Of a stretch of 64,000 nucleotides of DNA, positions 2,934-28,159 are shown piece by piece. Position 1 is the stretch's first letter. Every line of letters begins with the position of its first letter. The stretch comes from Bacteroidota bacterium. Lineage in GTDB: Bacteria; Bacteroidota; Bacteroidia; M30B66. The position numbers and the translations under genes are program-made. The notes under the pieces are model-generated. The model made no database searches and was not told where the DNA came from. It saw nothing but the letters and a program-made list of their open reading frames with translations. The DNA is taken from contig JAIXYK010000031.1 in assembly GCA_027490225.1 (NCBI GenBank), positions 1 to 64,000 of the forward strand, read 5' to 3'.

Positions 2934-3861
2934 TCAAATATTTATTTAGGTTATTGCAAGCTTTACTATAATTTTCAAAAGCCATAAAAAGTGGAATTGG
3001 TAATAAATAAGGAATCAAGCTCATCATTGCTACAATAGACATGGTGCCATTTCCGGCAATTAACTTTTCTCCAGGTTTGTAATTGGCATATTTAAGGCAA
3101 ATGGCCAGGCATAAAATGATAATTTGTAAGGGAATAAATAGCAAATTAATTATCCATAAATCGGGATTAAATGCAGCCTGAATAAATATTATTGGACAAT
3201 ACAAAAGAAACATATATAAAGCATGTCTTTGCATTTTTCTTTTTAAAAAGTCTTTAATACTAATAGCATGTTCGCGCAGTATTGTTAACGATTCTCCCTC
3301 ATCATAAAAAGATATAAATGTCATGGTTATGAGCCAAAGAAAAACCAGGGGCGCAATTCTAAACCAGCTGAATGCTAAGGCCAATAAATACAATATAAGG
3401 AGTGGAAAAAACGATTTTCTTAAACCACTAATTATTTCGAAATTAATGGCTGGAATTATCTTTGAAATACCCGGAAACAAGGTTTTGGGTGCAGGACTTA
3501 TTTTAATTAATGGAATAATAAGCAGCAATAAATAAGTAATTAATAATAAATACCAGTTTTTAGTAAACAATGCCATTGCAATAAATGGCGCGATTAATAG
3601 CGCATATTCAGCGTAAATGGCCAAAAAAGGCTGCTCAATATGCTTGTAAACAAAGTTTTTATCGCTCCTGTTAATTTGTATATACGTGCAAATTAGCAAC
3701 AATACGCTGGGAACGAGCATGGCTAATTTATTGTCAATGAGCGCCACATAAGCGCATTTCATCATTAAAGCTACAGTTCCTATTAAAAACAGCCAGCCAA
3801 ATCCTGCTCCTTTCAGCTCTCTGTTAAATTGCAGGATTCTTATTTTTAGTAGCTTATTCAT
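2926..3861 (-). CDS. ABC exporter membrane subunit (ABC-2-like), predicted
   Basis: Polytopic inner-membrane protein of 311 residues with about eight or nine hydrophobic segments, starting near residue 24 and ending near 295, and a short positively charged N-terminus. I do not recognise a specific family from motifs. Its role as the permease partner is inferred from the 8-base overlap with the ATPase gene downstream and from its hydrophobicity. It is the first gene of the pair. The 595-bp region upstream carries a perfect 20-bp palindrome at 4029-4048 that could be an operator. Confidence 0.75.
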   Translation of the reverse strand: MNKLLKIRILQFNRELKGAGFGWLFLIGTVALMMKCAYVALIDNKLAMLVPSVLLLICTYIQINRSDKNFVYKHIEQPFLAIYAEYALLIAPFIAMALFTKNWYLLLITYLLLLIIPLIKISPAPKTLFPGISKIIPAINFEIISGLRKSFFPLLILYLLALAFSWFRIAPLVFLWLITMTFISFYDEGESLTILREHAISIKDFLKRKMQRHALYMFLLYCPIIFIQAAFNPDLWIINLLFIPLQIIILCLAICLKYANYKPGEKLIAGNGTMSIVAMMSLIPYLLPIPLFMAFENYSKACNNLNKYLND

Positions 3862-24544: not shown

Positions 24545-24949
24545 CTATTTAGAACCTAGCTCTAAAATTCTATCAAACTCTTCCACCTTTAATGGCATAA
24601 CACTTAAGCGAGATTGTTTAATTAAACCTATATTTTGAAGCAAAGCATCTTTTTTAATGGTTTCTAAACTTACTTCATTAATTGTATGCAAAGGCTTTAA
24701 TTCTACTACCAACCACCTAACATCTTCAGTTGTTGGGTCTTGATAATGTTCTTTTATAACTTCTGCAACGCCAACTACATTCATTCCATCGTTGCTATGA
24801 TAAAAGAGAACTTTATCGTTTAGCTTCATTTCTCTCAAATTATTGCGCGCCTGGTAATTTCTAACACCATCCCAAACCGCTTTTCCATCCTCAACAAATC
24901 TAGACCAGCTGTATTTTACAGGTTCAGATTTTACCAACCAATATTGCAT
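24545..24949 (-). CDS. EVE domain-containing protein
   Basis: A 134-residue single-domain protein of the EVE (PUA-like) fold, which binds modified bases in DNA or RNA. Seen: the N-terminal YWLVKSEP, the core WDGVRNYQARNNLREMKLNDKVLFYHSN that is nearly invariant in the family, GVAEVIKEHYQDPT and the C-terminal LVVELKP strand. EVE proteins are related to YTH readers, human THYN1 and some restriction components. This is the common solitary version, usually chromosomal and conserved. It starts one base after the holA stop codon, so it is part of the amn-holA transcript. Confidence 0.93.
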   Translation of the reverse strand: MQYWLVKSEPVKYSWSRFVEDGKAVWDGVRNYQARNNLREMKLNDKVLFYHSNDGMNVVGVAEVIKEHYQDPTTEDVRWLVVELKPLHTINEVSLETIKKDALLQNIGLIKQSRLSVMPLKVEEFDRILELGSK

Positions 24950-24950
24950 A

Positions 24951-25949
24951 TCAATGTATCAATTTAAATGTTAATTCTTTAATTAATTCTCCGTGGTCAG
25001 CGCCATCGCTGTTTACTCCTTTGCTTCTTAAATCGCAATCGCGCAACGTGTGCATGATTCTAATCAATTTTGCAGGATTGTAATGTCTTGCGCCAGTTTC
25101 ATAGTCTTTTATAAAATATGGATTAATGCCTAATTGTTTGGCAACATCGCTACTACCCATACTTTTTAAATATTGAAATTGCAAAAGTTTAGAAAAGTAA
25201 GAATACAAGGAAGCAATCAACACAGGAATTGGATTACTTTTGGGATTATCAGCAAAGTAAAAAGCTATTTGATTTGCCTTTAGTATGTTTTTAGTTCCCA
25301 GGGCTTTTTGAAATTCGAAAATATTGTACTCTTTACTAATTCCGACCATTTGCTCAACATGCTGCTCAGTAATTTCTTGGTTTTGAGGAATATTTATGAC
25401 CAATTTCTCAGTTTCATTTACCACTTTTTCTAGCTCATTTCCTACCGATTCGGCCAACATAATTGCTGCTCTTGCTGTAATTGAAAATCCTTTTTTTCTT
25501 AAGTGGTTTCCAACCCATTCCGGAATTTTATCGTCTTTGATGCGTTCTGTTTTTAAGTAAACACTTCGTTTTACGATTTCTTTACCAAAGCTTTTGCGTT
25601 TATCGGGTTCTTTTCCCTTCATGGCAATTACCAAAATGGTTGACGGTTGAGGATTAAGAATATATGCTTCCAAATCTTCCATTTTTTTAAGTAGCTGTGC
25701 TTCCTTCACGATAACTACTTGGTACTCGCTCATCATTGGAAACCGTTTGGCAGTTACAATGATTTCTTCAGGAGTTGTTTCTAAACCATAAAGAACCGTT
25801 TGATTAAACTCTTTTTCATCGGCCGACAGCACATTGTCTTCAACAAATTTGGTAAGCTGGTCAATGTAATAGGGTTCGTCGCCACAGAAAAAATAAATAG
25901 GCGCAAATTTTTTCGCCTTTAAATCTTTAATAATCGGTTCAATATTCAT
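24951..25949 (-). CDS. holA: DNA polymerase III subunit delta
   Basis: Clamp-loader subunit that opens the beta sliding clamp, 332 residues, near the family average of about 340. It has the typical start PIYFFCGDEPYYIDQL, the AAA+-like but catalytically inert fold, IVTAKRFPMMSEYQVVIVKEAQ, an ILVIAMKGK strand and a helical collar domain at the C-terminus (ISKEYNIFEFQKALG). It lacks Walker motifs, as expected for delta. It begins 7 bases after the amn stop and ends one base before the EVE gene, so all three are co-transcribed. Confidence 0.93.
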   Translation of the reverse strand: MNIEPIIKDLKAKKFAPIYFFCGDEPYYIDQLTKFVEDNVLSADEKEFNQTVLYGLETTPEEIIVTAKRFPMMSEYQVVIVKEAQLLKKMEDLEAYILNPQPSTILVIAMKGKEPDKRKSFGKEIVKRSVYLKTERIKDDKIPEWVGNHLRKKGFSITARAAIMLAESVGNELEKVVNETEKLVINIPQNQEITEQHVEQMVGISKEYNIFEFQKALGTKNILKANQIAFYFADNPKSNPIPVLIASLYSYFSKLLQFQYLKSMGSSDVAKQLGINPYFIKDYETGARHYNPAKLIRIMHTLRDCDLRSKGVNSDGADHGELIKELTFKLIH

Positions 25950-25956
25950 TGCAAAC

Positions 25957-26727
25957 TTAGAAACGAAGGTGTTTTACGGTATTTCCGTTATTAATTAATT
26001 CATTTAAAGATGCAATGCCAATTAATAAATGATCATCTACAAAGTTTTTTGTAACAACAGTATCGCTTTTTTCAGTTTTTACACCGGTTGCAACCATGGG
26101 CTGATCGCTCACAAGTAACAAGGCTCCTGTTGGAATTTTATTGTAAAAACCAACACTAAAAATAGTGGCAGTTTCCATATCAATGGCCATTGCCCTGATT
26201 TTACGTAAGTATTTTTTAAAGCTATTGTCGTGTTCCCAAACGCGGCGGTTAGTGGTGTACACAGTTCCGGTCCAATAATCTTTATTAAAATTTCGAATGG
26301 ATGTTGATACCGCTTTTTGTAAAGAGAAAGCAGGTAAGGCAGGAACTTCTGGTGGAAAATAATCGTTAGATGTTCCATCGCCTCTTATTGCTGCAAGGGG
26401 TAAAATAAAATCGCCTACTTCATTTTTACGTTTTAATCCCCCACATTTTCCTAAAAACAACGCAGCTTTTGGTTTAATGGCAGAAAGCAAATCCATGATT
26501 GATGCTGCATTTGGACTTCCCATTCCAAATTTTATAATTGTAATTCCATTTGCTGTTGCGGTAGGCATTGGTCTGTCGGCTCCAACTACGGGAACCTTCA
26601 TCATTTCTGCAAATTTCTCTACATAATTGCTGAAGTTGGTCAATAGAATATATTTGCCAAAATCTTCTAGAGGCATTCCTGTGTATCTTGGAAGCCAATT
26701 ACCTACGATATCTTCTTTACTTTTCAT
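25957..26727 (-). CDS. amn: AMP nucleosidase (short Bacteroidota form)
   Basis: Cleaves AMP to adenine and ribose 5-phosphate, linking purine salvage to energy charge. About 256 residues in the phosphorylase superfamily (PNP_UDP_1 domain); this is the short form, without the N-terminal regulatory domain of the E. coli enzyme. Seen: VVGADRPMPTA, IIKFGMGSPNA, ALFLGKCGGLK and the substrate-binding strand AIDMETATIFSVGF, where Glu contacts the ribose. An in-frame TTG at 26778 gives a longer form, but the family start MKSKEDIVGNWLPRYTG matches the ATG at 26727. That ATG shares bases with the divergent gene's ATG (CATG). Confidence 0.93.
   Translation of the reverse strand: MKSKEDIVGNWLPRYTGMPLEDFGKYILLTNFSNYVEKFAEMMKVPVVGADRPMPTATANGITIIKFGMGSPNAASIMDLLSAIKPKAALFLGKCGGLKRKNEVGDFILPLAAIRGDGTSNDYFPPEVPALPAFSLQKAVSTSIRNFNKDYWTGTVYTTNRRVWEHDNSFKKYLRKIRAMAIDMETATIFSVGFYNKIPTGALLLVSDQPMVATGVKTEKSDTVVTKNFVDDHLLIGIASLNELINNGNTVKHLRF
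26627..26656 (+). promoter_or_regulatory. Candidate promoter of the HSDR_N gene, inside amn
   Basis: TTG (26627-26629), a 19-base spacer and TATATTTG (26649-26656) match the Bacteroidota consensus TTG-N17-23-TAnnTTTG. It lies 69 bases before the ATG at 26726 and is wholly within the coding region of the divergent amn gene. Confidence 0.55.
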
Positions 26728-27187
26728 GGATTTTATAAATAATTTACCGGTTTTAAATTTCCCTGCCTTTAAATTCAAGCTAAAGGATGAACAACAAAGA
26801 ACGCAAATTTATGACGCTTTTAGAAACAAATTTGTAATCTTAACACCAGAAGAATGGGTTAGACAACATGTTTTACATTATTTAACCGATATTCAGAAAA
26901 TTTCGAAGAATAAAATAGCAGTAGAATATTCCTTAAAACTGAATGGGCAACAAAAACGAGCCGATGTTTTGATTTTTGGAAAATCTATGGAACCAAGCGT
27001 TATTATTGAGTGTAAGTCAACAGATGTAAAAATCTCACTAGCTATTTTTGACCAAGCAGCCAGGTATAATTTGGTATTGAAAGTGCCATTTTTAATAATA
27101 ACCAACGGATTTGAAATGCACATTGCGAAAGTGAATTTCGAAACACAAACAACAGAGTTGCTTAAGGAATTTCCTATTCTTTTGTAA
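26726..27187 (+). CDS. HSDR_N_2-type PD-(D/E)XK nuclease-fold protein
   Basis: A 153-residue protein resembling the N-terminal nuclease domain of type I restriction R subunits (HSDR_N_2). It begins LPVLNFPAFKFKLK, then TPEEWVRQHVLHYL, RADVLIF and IIECKSTDVKI. The D...ECK arrangement is a PD-(D/E)XK active site. No methylase, specificity or helicase gene is near, so it is a solitary domain, common in Bacteroidota genomes and probably not a restriction enzyme. An in-frame start at 26627 would overlap amn by 100 bases; family alignment supports the ATG at 26726. Substrate unknown. Confidence 0.88.
   Translation: MDFINNLPVLNFPAFKFKLKDEQQRTQIYDAFRNKFVILTPEEWVRQHVLHYLTDIQKISKNKIAVEYSLKLNGQQKRADVLIFGKSMEPSVIIECKSTDVKISLAIFDQAARYNLVLKVPFLIITNGFEMHIAKVNFETQTTELLKEFPILL
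26804..26811 (-). promoter_or_regulatory. Candidate -7 box for amn, inside the HSDR_N gene
   Basis: On the minus strand the sequence is TAAATTTG, an exact TAnnTTTG, 76 bases before the amn ATG. The only TTTG upstream gives a 15-base spacer, shorter than usual. Confidence 0.35.
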
Positions 27188-27214
27188 TGAAGGTTATTTG
27201 ATTTTAAATATGCA

Positions 27215-27358
27215 GCCCGCGCCAGTGATTGGAGCGAAAACCCGGTGCGAGGCCTTTTGCCGAGCGGCGCGTTGAAGCGTAAAGCACGGTTTACAAAACA
27301 ATAAAGTATTGCTCAAAAAACAATGTAATGTTTTATTGTTTTGGAAAGGCGCCCAAAA
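27215..27358 (+). repeat. Dispersed GC-rich intergenic repeat, family 1, copy c
   Basis: Starts GCCCGCGCCAGTGATTGGAG and ends GGCGCCCAAAA, sharing both border boxes with the inverted copy at 2153-2220. The interior contains a perfect 11-bp inverted repeat AAAACAATAAA (27295-27305) / TTTATTGTTTT (27332-27342). It occupies most of the gap between two convergent genes, so its hairpin might end transcription from either side. Confidence 0.65.
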
Positions 27359-27396
27359 CTTAAAGATTACCAATAAGTTGACTTTTAATTTTGAAT

Positions 27397-27600
27397 TTAT
27401 TGCTGGATGTTTTTTTCTGCTTTAATGCGTTGGTATCTTCTTAAACCATAAAAAATACCTGCTGCGAACGTTGCAATAAGGGGCATGGTAACTTCTTTGG
27501 TTTTGCCAGTTGCTATTAAAAATATGCTCAAGGCTGCTAATAAAATGGCGAAAACAAGCCATACGCGCTCCATTATTCTAAAAACTTTGATATTGTCCAT
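27397..27600 (-). CDS. Small membrane protein next to lptC
   Basis: A 67-residue protein with two hydrophobic segments: VWLVFAILLAALSIFLIA (about 13-30) and MPLIATFAAGIFYGLRRYQ (about 39-57), followed by a charged tail. There is no signature that points to a function. It begins 10 bases after the lptC stop, so it is probably the last gene of the coaX-OMP-lptC operon. Its size and membrane profile fit a small inner-membrane protein found beside envelope genes in this phylum. Confidence 0.7.
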   Translation of the reverse strand: MDNIKVFRIMERVWLVFAILLAALSIFLIATGKTKEVTMPLIATFAAGIFYGLRRYQRIKAEKNIQQ

Positions 27601-27610
27601 TTTGATGTTG

Positions 27611-28159
27611 TTAAGGATTTTGTTTTAAGTTGATGATTCCCTTGGGTTTGAGGATTTTGTAAGTGGTAAAATCTTGGTTAGATTCAAAGCCATCGCCATA
27701 AATTACGCGTTCGGTTGAGGTAATTTTTGTGAAAACGTTTGAATAAATTTTATTGGCTTTTTGGTCCCAGATAAGGTGATTGGTGTTGAGTTTGTCGCCA
27801 TTGGAACTGCTGATTTCTACATCGTTGCGGGCTTCCATTTTGTCTTCTTTGGTATAACTGATGGCATATTTTGCAGTTAGGACAGATTCTACTTTTTGAT
27901 TTTCGTCGTAAAACTCTACGCGAATACCTTTATTGAAAACTATGTATGGCTTTTGGCCAAAGAATGTTTCTCTTAAAGGAGCTCTGATGCGCGCTTTTAG
28001 CTGGGCTGAATCGGAATAGAGCATTTCTACATTTTTAGTGGTAGAAACCGGTAAAGGTTTATAGTTAGTTATTTTTTGCACTTCTGCTATGTCGTTTGTA
28101 CAAGCGGTAATGCAGCAAATAAAGATTGCTAAAGTTATTTTAGCAATGTGATTAATCAT
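27611..28159 (-). CDS. lptC: LPS export protein LptC, lipoprotein form
   Basis: Periplasmic component of the LptBFGC-A-D bridge that moves lipopolysaccharide from the inner to the outer membrane. The 182 residues begin with a signal sequence ending in the lipobox ITAC (Cys 20), so here LptC is lipidated instead of having the single transmembrane anchor of E. coli. The mature part has the repeated beta-strand pattern of the OstA/LptC fold: NVEMLYSDSAQLKARIRAP, the GIRVEFYDEN strand, TAKYAISY and the NHLIWDQKANKIYSN block. It overlaps the end of the upstream outer-membrane gene by 8 bases. Other Lpt genes are not in this window. Confidence 0.88.
   Translation of the reverse strand: MINHIAKITLAIFICCITACTNDIAEVQKITNYKPLPVSTTKNVEMLYSDSAQLKARIRAPLRETFFGQKPYIVFNKGIRVEFYDENQKVESVLTAKYAISYTKEDKMEARNDVEISSSNGDKLNTNHLIWDQKANKIYSNVFTKITSTERVIYGDGFESNQDFTTYKILKPKGIINLKQNP

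Follow-up and report, generated by a model that had tools for sequence, protein, structure and literature searches.

The window, a stretch of 64,000 nucleotides from contig JAIXYK010000031.1 of a Bacteroidota bacterium, carries two divergent genes, HSDR_N_2 (hereafter HSDR_N) and amn, which meet at their start codons (Table 1). HSDR_N encodes a small stand-alone nuclease-like domain. Its residues E67, D80, E95, K97, Q110 and Y114 are invariant in all 56 aligned homologues (L089, interrupted by a contig end, is excluded), a set that suggests an intact PD-(D/E)XK site carrying a QxxxY motif. We considered a full-length type I restriction enzyme R subunit, combining nuclease and motor, and rejected it: the protein is only 153 residues long, aligns to positions 25-122 of the 768 positions of profile NF046051 and scores 33.1 bits (cut-off 550). 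A sequence search for relatives with a solved structure returned none at E 0.01, and the literature searched contained no paper mentioning both HSDR_N_2 and Bacteroidetes. A stand-alone HSDR_N_2 protein match was present in 56 of the 60 genomes searched, including the genome under study. Just 3' of the gene, at 27200-27360, lies a dispersed, GC-rich repeat some 140-160 bp long, with at least 11 further matches in the same genome (71-91% identity; 40 of 64 candidates scored), five of which span most of the element (71-86% identity).

Table 1 Genes and sequence elements around the amn/HSDR_N junction.
Feature	Position	Strand	Basis and distribution
EVE-domain gene	24545..24949	-	PF01878, 146.1 bits
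holA, DNA polymerase III delta	24951..25949	-	TIGR01128, 256.8 bits
amn, AMP nucleosidase short form, 256 aa	25957..26727	-	NCBIfam equivalog NF005500, 430.2 bits (cut-off 264); TIGR01721, 348.4 bits
TTG, predicted HSDR_N promoter, -33-like element	26627..26629	+	inside amn, N19 ahead of the -7 box
TATATTTG, predicted HSDR_N promoter, -7 box	26649..26656	+	6/9 order members, 0/100 other amn genes
CATG palindrome with both start codons	26725..26728	.	sequence; same overlap in 9/9 order members with both genes
HSDR_N_2, nuclease-like stand-alone domain of 153 aa	26726..27187	+	PF13588, 109.4 bits (gathering cut-off 25)
TAAATTTG, amn-direction box	26804..26811	-	4/9 order members; probably a by-product of Q-I-Y codons

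On the minus strand, gaps of 7 bp between amn and holA and of 1 bp between holA and the EVE-domain gene suggest that amn probably heads an operon, with the two following genes likely on the same transcript. We know of no functional link between amn and HSDR_N.

The original prediction held that the two ATGs share two bases of a CATG and that no space separates the genes. Both statements were confirmed to the base: the amn ATG occupies 26727-26725 on the minus strand and the HSDR_N ATG 26726-26728 on the plus strand. As both genes are genuine, lie on opposite strands and share bases at their 5' ends, the pair belongs to the divergent overlapping genes. CATG is its own reverse complement, and any ATG preceded by C therefore yields a free ATG on the opposite strand. 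The base preceding the amn ATG is C in all nine order members that possess both genes, compared with 18 of 100 amn genes elsewhere (Fisher 1.1e-6). Within 464 kb of the same genome (the window plus 20 stretches) amn/HSDR_N was the sole overlapping pair among 42 divergent pairs, a count made with a simple, rough custom gene caller whose thresholds and model were altered after a stricter run had missed HSDR_N, and hence with the answer for this pair already known. The next-smallest gap measured 60 bp, the median gap being 227 bp, and thus divergent junctions in this genome are not tight in general.

A proposed check was whether the gene pair and its CATG overlap are conserved in relatives. Ten genomes of the order were examined, and the overlap was found in all nine, from five genera, that carry both amn and HSDR_N (in G003, HSDR_N is split across two contig ends and its first part alone was read); the tenth genome is 73% complete and yielded neither gene. 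Among 29 HSDR_N loci of relatives (L112-L140, the best matches), 18, seven from the order and 11 from outside it, have a divergent amn neighbour, five have holA in place of amn, and six have neither in the stretch examined, one of these being a contig fragment. A total of 109 amn loci (9 from the order, 100 others) were compared, excluding duplicate amn sequences, loci without amn and those with fewer than 60 bases upstream. Outside the order, represented by a sample made up of the best 80 of 585 confirmed loci and of genomes from further relative searches, the divergent pair is common, with a median spacer of 58 bp and an overlap in a single case (L015) among the 48 of 54 pairs that could be placed; the remaining six were dropped for a spacer above 300 bp or for want of an ATG or GTG near the aligned start. 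In L015 (Flammeovirgaceae) the same CATG geometry occurs around position 3001, perhaps independently, though a GTG further on could plausibly be the start there.

With overlapping starts and no spacer, at least one of the two on-signals appears to lie inside the neighbour's coding sequence. In the direction of HSDR_N, the genome under study contains a TAHHTTTG -7 box with an upstream TTG, and TTG-N19-TATATTTG fits the sigma-A (-33/-7) promoter of Bacteroidetes, TTTG / TAHHTTTG, as given in the relevant passages of PMC6847099 and PMC7366714. This match occupies amn codons 24-34, with the end of its -7 box 69 bp upstream of the HSDR_N ATG. Six of the nine amn genes of the order have it, at one fixed place, and none of 100 other amn genes does, the TTG and the -7 box being both present in the same six genomes and both absent from the other three. 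When all nine amn genes were scanned in both directions for TTG-N17-21-TAnnTTTG, this was the single place at which the pattern occurred, and a reversed control gave none.

Common descent by itself accounts poorly for this match, since synonymous sites of amn are near saturation: synonymous codon identity is 0.42 within the order and 0.39 to outgroups, compared with 0.37 expected for independent codons. The CATG overlap, too, persists in nine of nine genomes against this background. Among genes that encode Gly-Lys-Tyr at the box, GGCAAATAT is used in six of eight from the order but in none of 29 outside (Fisher 1.2e-5). When synonymous codons were shuffled with the protein kept, individual genomes yielded the match in 0-10% of trials; treating the genomes as independent, the probability of six or more matches in nine is 1.0e-6, and that of five or more in eight, with a near-identical pair merged, is 8.9e-6. 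The third base of codon 33 is C in all six box-bearing genomes, by way of AGC, ACC or TCC. In column scores that exclude L085, amn codons 1-40 rank 5th of 216 windows for synonymous conservation and codons 24-26 rank 8th of 253. Taken as a whole, codons 21-36 show ordinary synonymous conservation (53 of 240 windows are equally high).

The match carries weight by its place and conservation and not by the rarity of the motif in the window, in which it occurs twice against 2.9 expected in shuffles. Across the genome, the exact 19-spacer motif was counted 188 times, about twice the 100 of the reversed control, and a -7 box lies within 150 nt upstream of 34 of the 84 genes in divergent pairs, compared with six for the reversed pattern. 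A TTG ahead of these boxes showed no clear preferred spacing. The predicted box end at -69 falls outside the main peak, with 28 of 62 boxes in this genome lying at most 40 nt from the start and five at 60-79. A sigma-70 scan of 25900-27500 found seven candidates, with 5.5 expected. In G003, G008 and G009, the genomes from which both elements are absent, no box with a suitably spaced TTG was found within 300 bp, the sole exact box in this range being a lone TAGGTTTG at -249 in G003. Two changes of the box are required on the amn tree, whose resolution is weak. Taken together, TTG-N19-TATATTTG is probably the HSDR_N promoter. Were it instead a neutral relic of shared codons, with the overlap real and HSDR_N expressed from another, unrecognised site, its absence from three of the nine genomes, the lack of broad constraint over codons 21-36 and the lack of enrichment in the window would come as no surprise, whereas the near-saturated synonymous sites, the confinement to one place in nine amn genes and the absence from 100 outgroup genes would be hard to accommodate. 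We consider such a relic unlikely, while still taking it seriously.

Outside the order, HSDR_N boxes occur in 18 of the 48 placed pairs, 2-38 bp before the start and never within amn; the reversed control, at 16 of 48, is nearly equal, and we suspect that amn start codons cause this high value. In five of these loci (L022, L027, L070, L073 and L078) the -7 box stops 4-5 bp short of the HSDR_N start codon, an arrangement that would give a leaderless or nearly leaderless mRNA.

A true overlap also depends on the HSDR_N start being placed correctly. The ATG is retained in all nine genomes of the order, while the residue next to the methionine varies (D, S, N, G, E or T) and the N-terminus of the aligned members is otherwise unconserved. 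Furthermore, the genome under study, L086 and L087 have no other ATG, GTG or TTG within roughly 30 codons downstream of it (the systematic scan covered the first 13 codons or more, and the longer range was read from the sequences). Together, these features of the aligned sequences point to the ATG within the CATG as the start in use. They also speak against the alternative that the true start is a TTG upstream within amn, or a later or rare codon, so that the ATGs would not truly overlap. Such a misplacement could draw on a TTG 9 bp upstream in six of the nine genomes, on L088, which has an ATG for aligned residue 7, and on the outgroups, where our choice rule places the start at residue 7 in 31 of 48 cases, and we nevertheless regard it as improbable. 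In the outgroups L008 and L053 the N-termini are merely one or two residues shorter, and these genes have spacers of 47 and 136 bp; hence loss of the spacer is likelier than a long 5' extension of the gene.

The sequences themselves show that the two ATGs overlap, that they do so throughout the order as examined, and that six of the nine genomes keep the promoter match. The explanation that we favour, and hold to be probable, is that the spacer was lost in an ancestor of the order and that the HSDR_N promoter is embedded in amn codons, serving ordinary housekeeping expression. The starting point would be a widespread divergent neighbourhood, with HSDR_N_2 facing one way and amn, often with holA, the other. 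Loss of the spacer in such an ancestor would have brought the ATGs to overlap in CATG, and HSDR_N would since be transcribed from the Bacteroidetes-type sigma-A promoter in amn codons 24-34. With the placing of the -7 box at -12 to -5 described for F. psychrophilum in the pertinent part of PMC9723704, the predicted transcript would start at about 26661, and its leader, some 65 nt long, would run antisense to the opening codons of amn; the same source gives a median leader of 24 and a mean of 65. The amn-holA transcript would run in the opposite direction, probably from a site other than TAAATTTG. Some interference between the expression of the two genes is physically likely, and we infer that the HSDR_N promoter is active from about 26661 and that mutual interference is mild at most.

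The original prediction placed each promoter inside the other gene, and the half that concerns HSDR_N is supported by the match within amn, where that promoter most likely lies. The half that concerns amn fared less well. The TAAATTTG box does exist within HSDR_N, reading from 26811 to 26804, and was found in four of the nine genomes, at -76 or -79. A TTG at 17-21 bp from the box was present in none of the nine within the 300 nt scanned upstream (223 nt in L089). The box is present exactly where HSDR_N reads Q-I-Y and absent with E-I-Y, E-I-F and Q-I-F, and protein coding therefore explains TAAATTTG. Present in fewer than half of the genomes, lacking the TTG and tracking Q-I-Y, it was rejected as an unsupported candidate for a conserved sigma-A promoter of amn. 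Outside the order, amn-direction boxes were found in eight of 48 pairs (four inside HSDR_N, at differing places), against two of 48 in the reversed control. Read-through into amn from genes beyond HSDR_N was also considered and rejected as a general source of transcription: judged by ORFs alone at four loci (the window, L001, L002 and L003), the ORFs beyond HSDR_N differ, and the nearest long one faces amn in three and away from it in L002, so that read-through is possible in places and the arrangement is not conserved.

The geometry had further been taken to make a built-in switch. In its fullest form this would be an excludon-like arrangement, an extension of the favoured explanation and compatible with the embedded promoter, in which both promoters lie in the opposite gene and complementary 5' regions (about 26661-26799) bring about mutual repression. 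With the starts overlapping, upstream elements that lie close by must fall within the neighbouring gene, the genome under study has a TAAATTTG box in the amn direction, amn-direction boxes are somewhat commoner than their reversed control outside the order, and excludons have been described in Listeria (PMC4179725, in the portion relevant here). Set against this, the amn-direction box is patchy, follows Q-I-Y and never has a -33 TTG, both boxes occur together in the genome under study alone among the nine, folding of five leader RNAs was unremarkable (z-scores 0.63 to 0.91), and Rfam gave no match over 25900-27700 at gathering scores. Beyond geometry, these computations lend a regulated switch little support, and we give the excludon-like form scant credence; the likely function of the compacted junction is ordinary housekeeping expression rather than switching. 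Least probable of all, from the sequences at hand, is that the overlap was kept as a cis-acting brake, with transcription of the nuclease gene antisense to the start of the amn-holA operon fixed across the order, an arrangement which, if true, would couple a stand-alone HsdR-type nuclease to an operon carrying DNA polymerase III delta.

Among the papers listed by literature searches on divergent and overlapping starts, on promoters (those of Bacteroidetes included) and on excludons, none describes this amn/HSDR_N pair in its title or the opening of its abstract. It is a further case of the known divergent overlapping genes, and its interest lies in the conserved promoter match embedded in it. 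In the sections of a 58-species survey that concern such pairs (PMC2174442), 331 overlaps were divergent, 12,737 co-directional and 1,890 convergent, and the rarity of the divergent class was ascribed to the need for upstream regulatory elements. The rarest class of prokaryotic overlap is present here throughout the order as examined. The pair resembles those of the survey in its opposite strands and overlapping 5' ends, and differs in that the overlap, seen in each of the nine order members checked, comprises two bases only and falls within a CATG that is its own reverse complement. With the Listeria excludon, as outlined in the corresponding part of PMC4179725, it shares divergent genes with possibly complementary 5' transcripts; unlike that system, it has a predicted leader of 65 nt rather than a long antisense leader and is known from sequence alone. 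Compared with the usual Bacteroidetes sigma-A promoter, the match is unusual in lying within the coding sequence of a neighbour, and the leader predicted from it is 65 nt long. The choice of amn codons may therefore carry two messages, the protein and the promoter of the neighbour.

Finally, the overlap touches the translation context of both genes. HSDR_N has T at -3 in all nine genomes of the order (outside it, 13 of 46 have A), a poor base by the rule for F. johnsoniae as stated in the relevant passage of PMC6847099 and a point against the favoured explanation, and amn has A at -3 in none of the nine, compared with 49 of 100 outside. By the same rule, the overlap should therefore cost both genes some translation.
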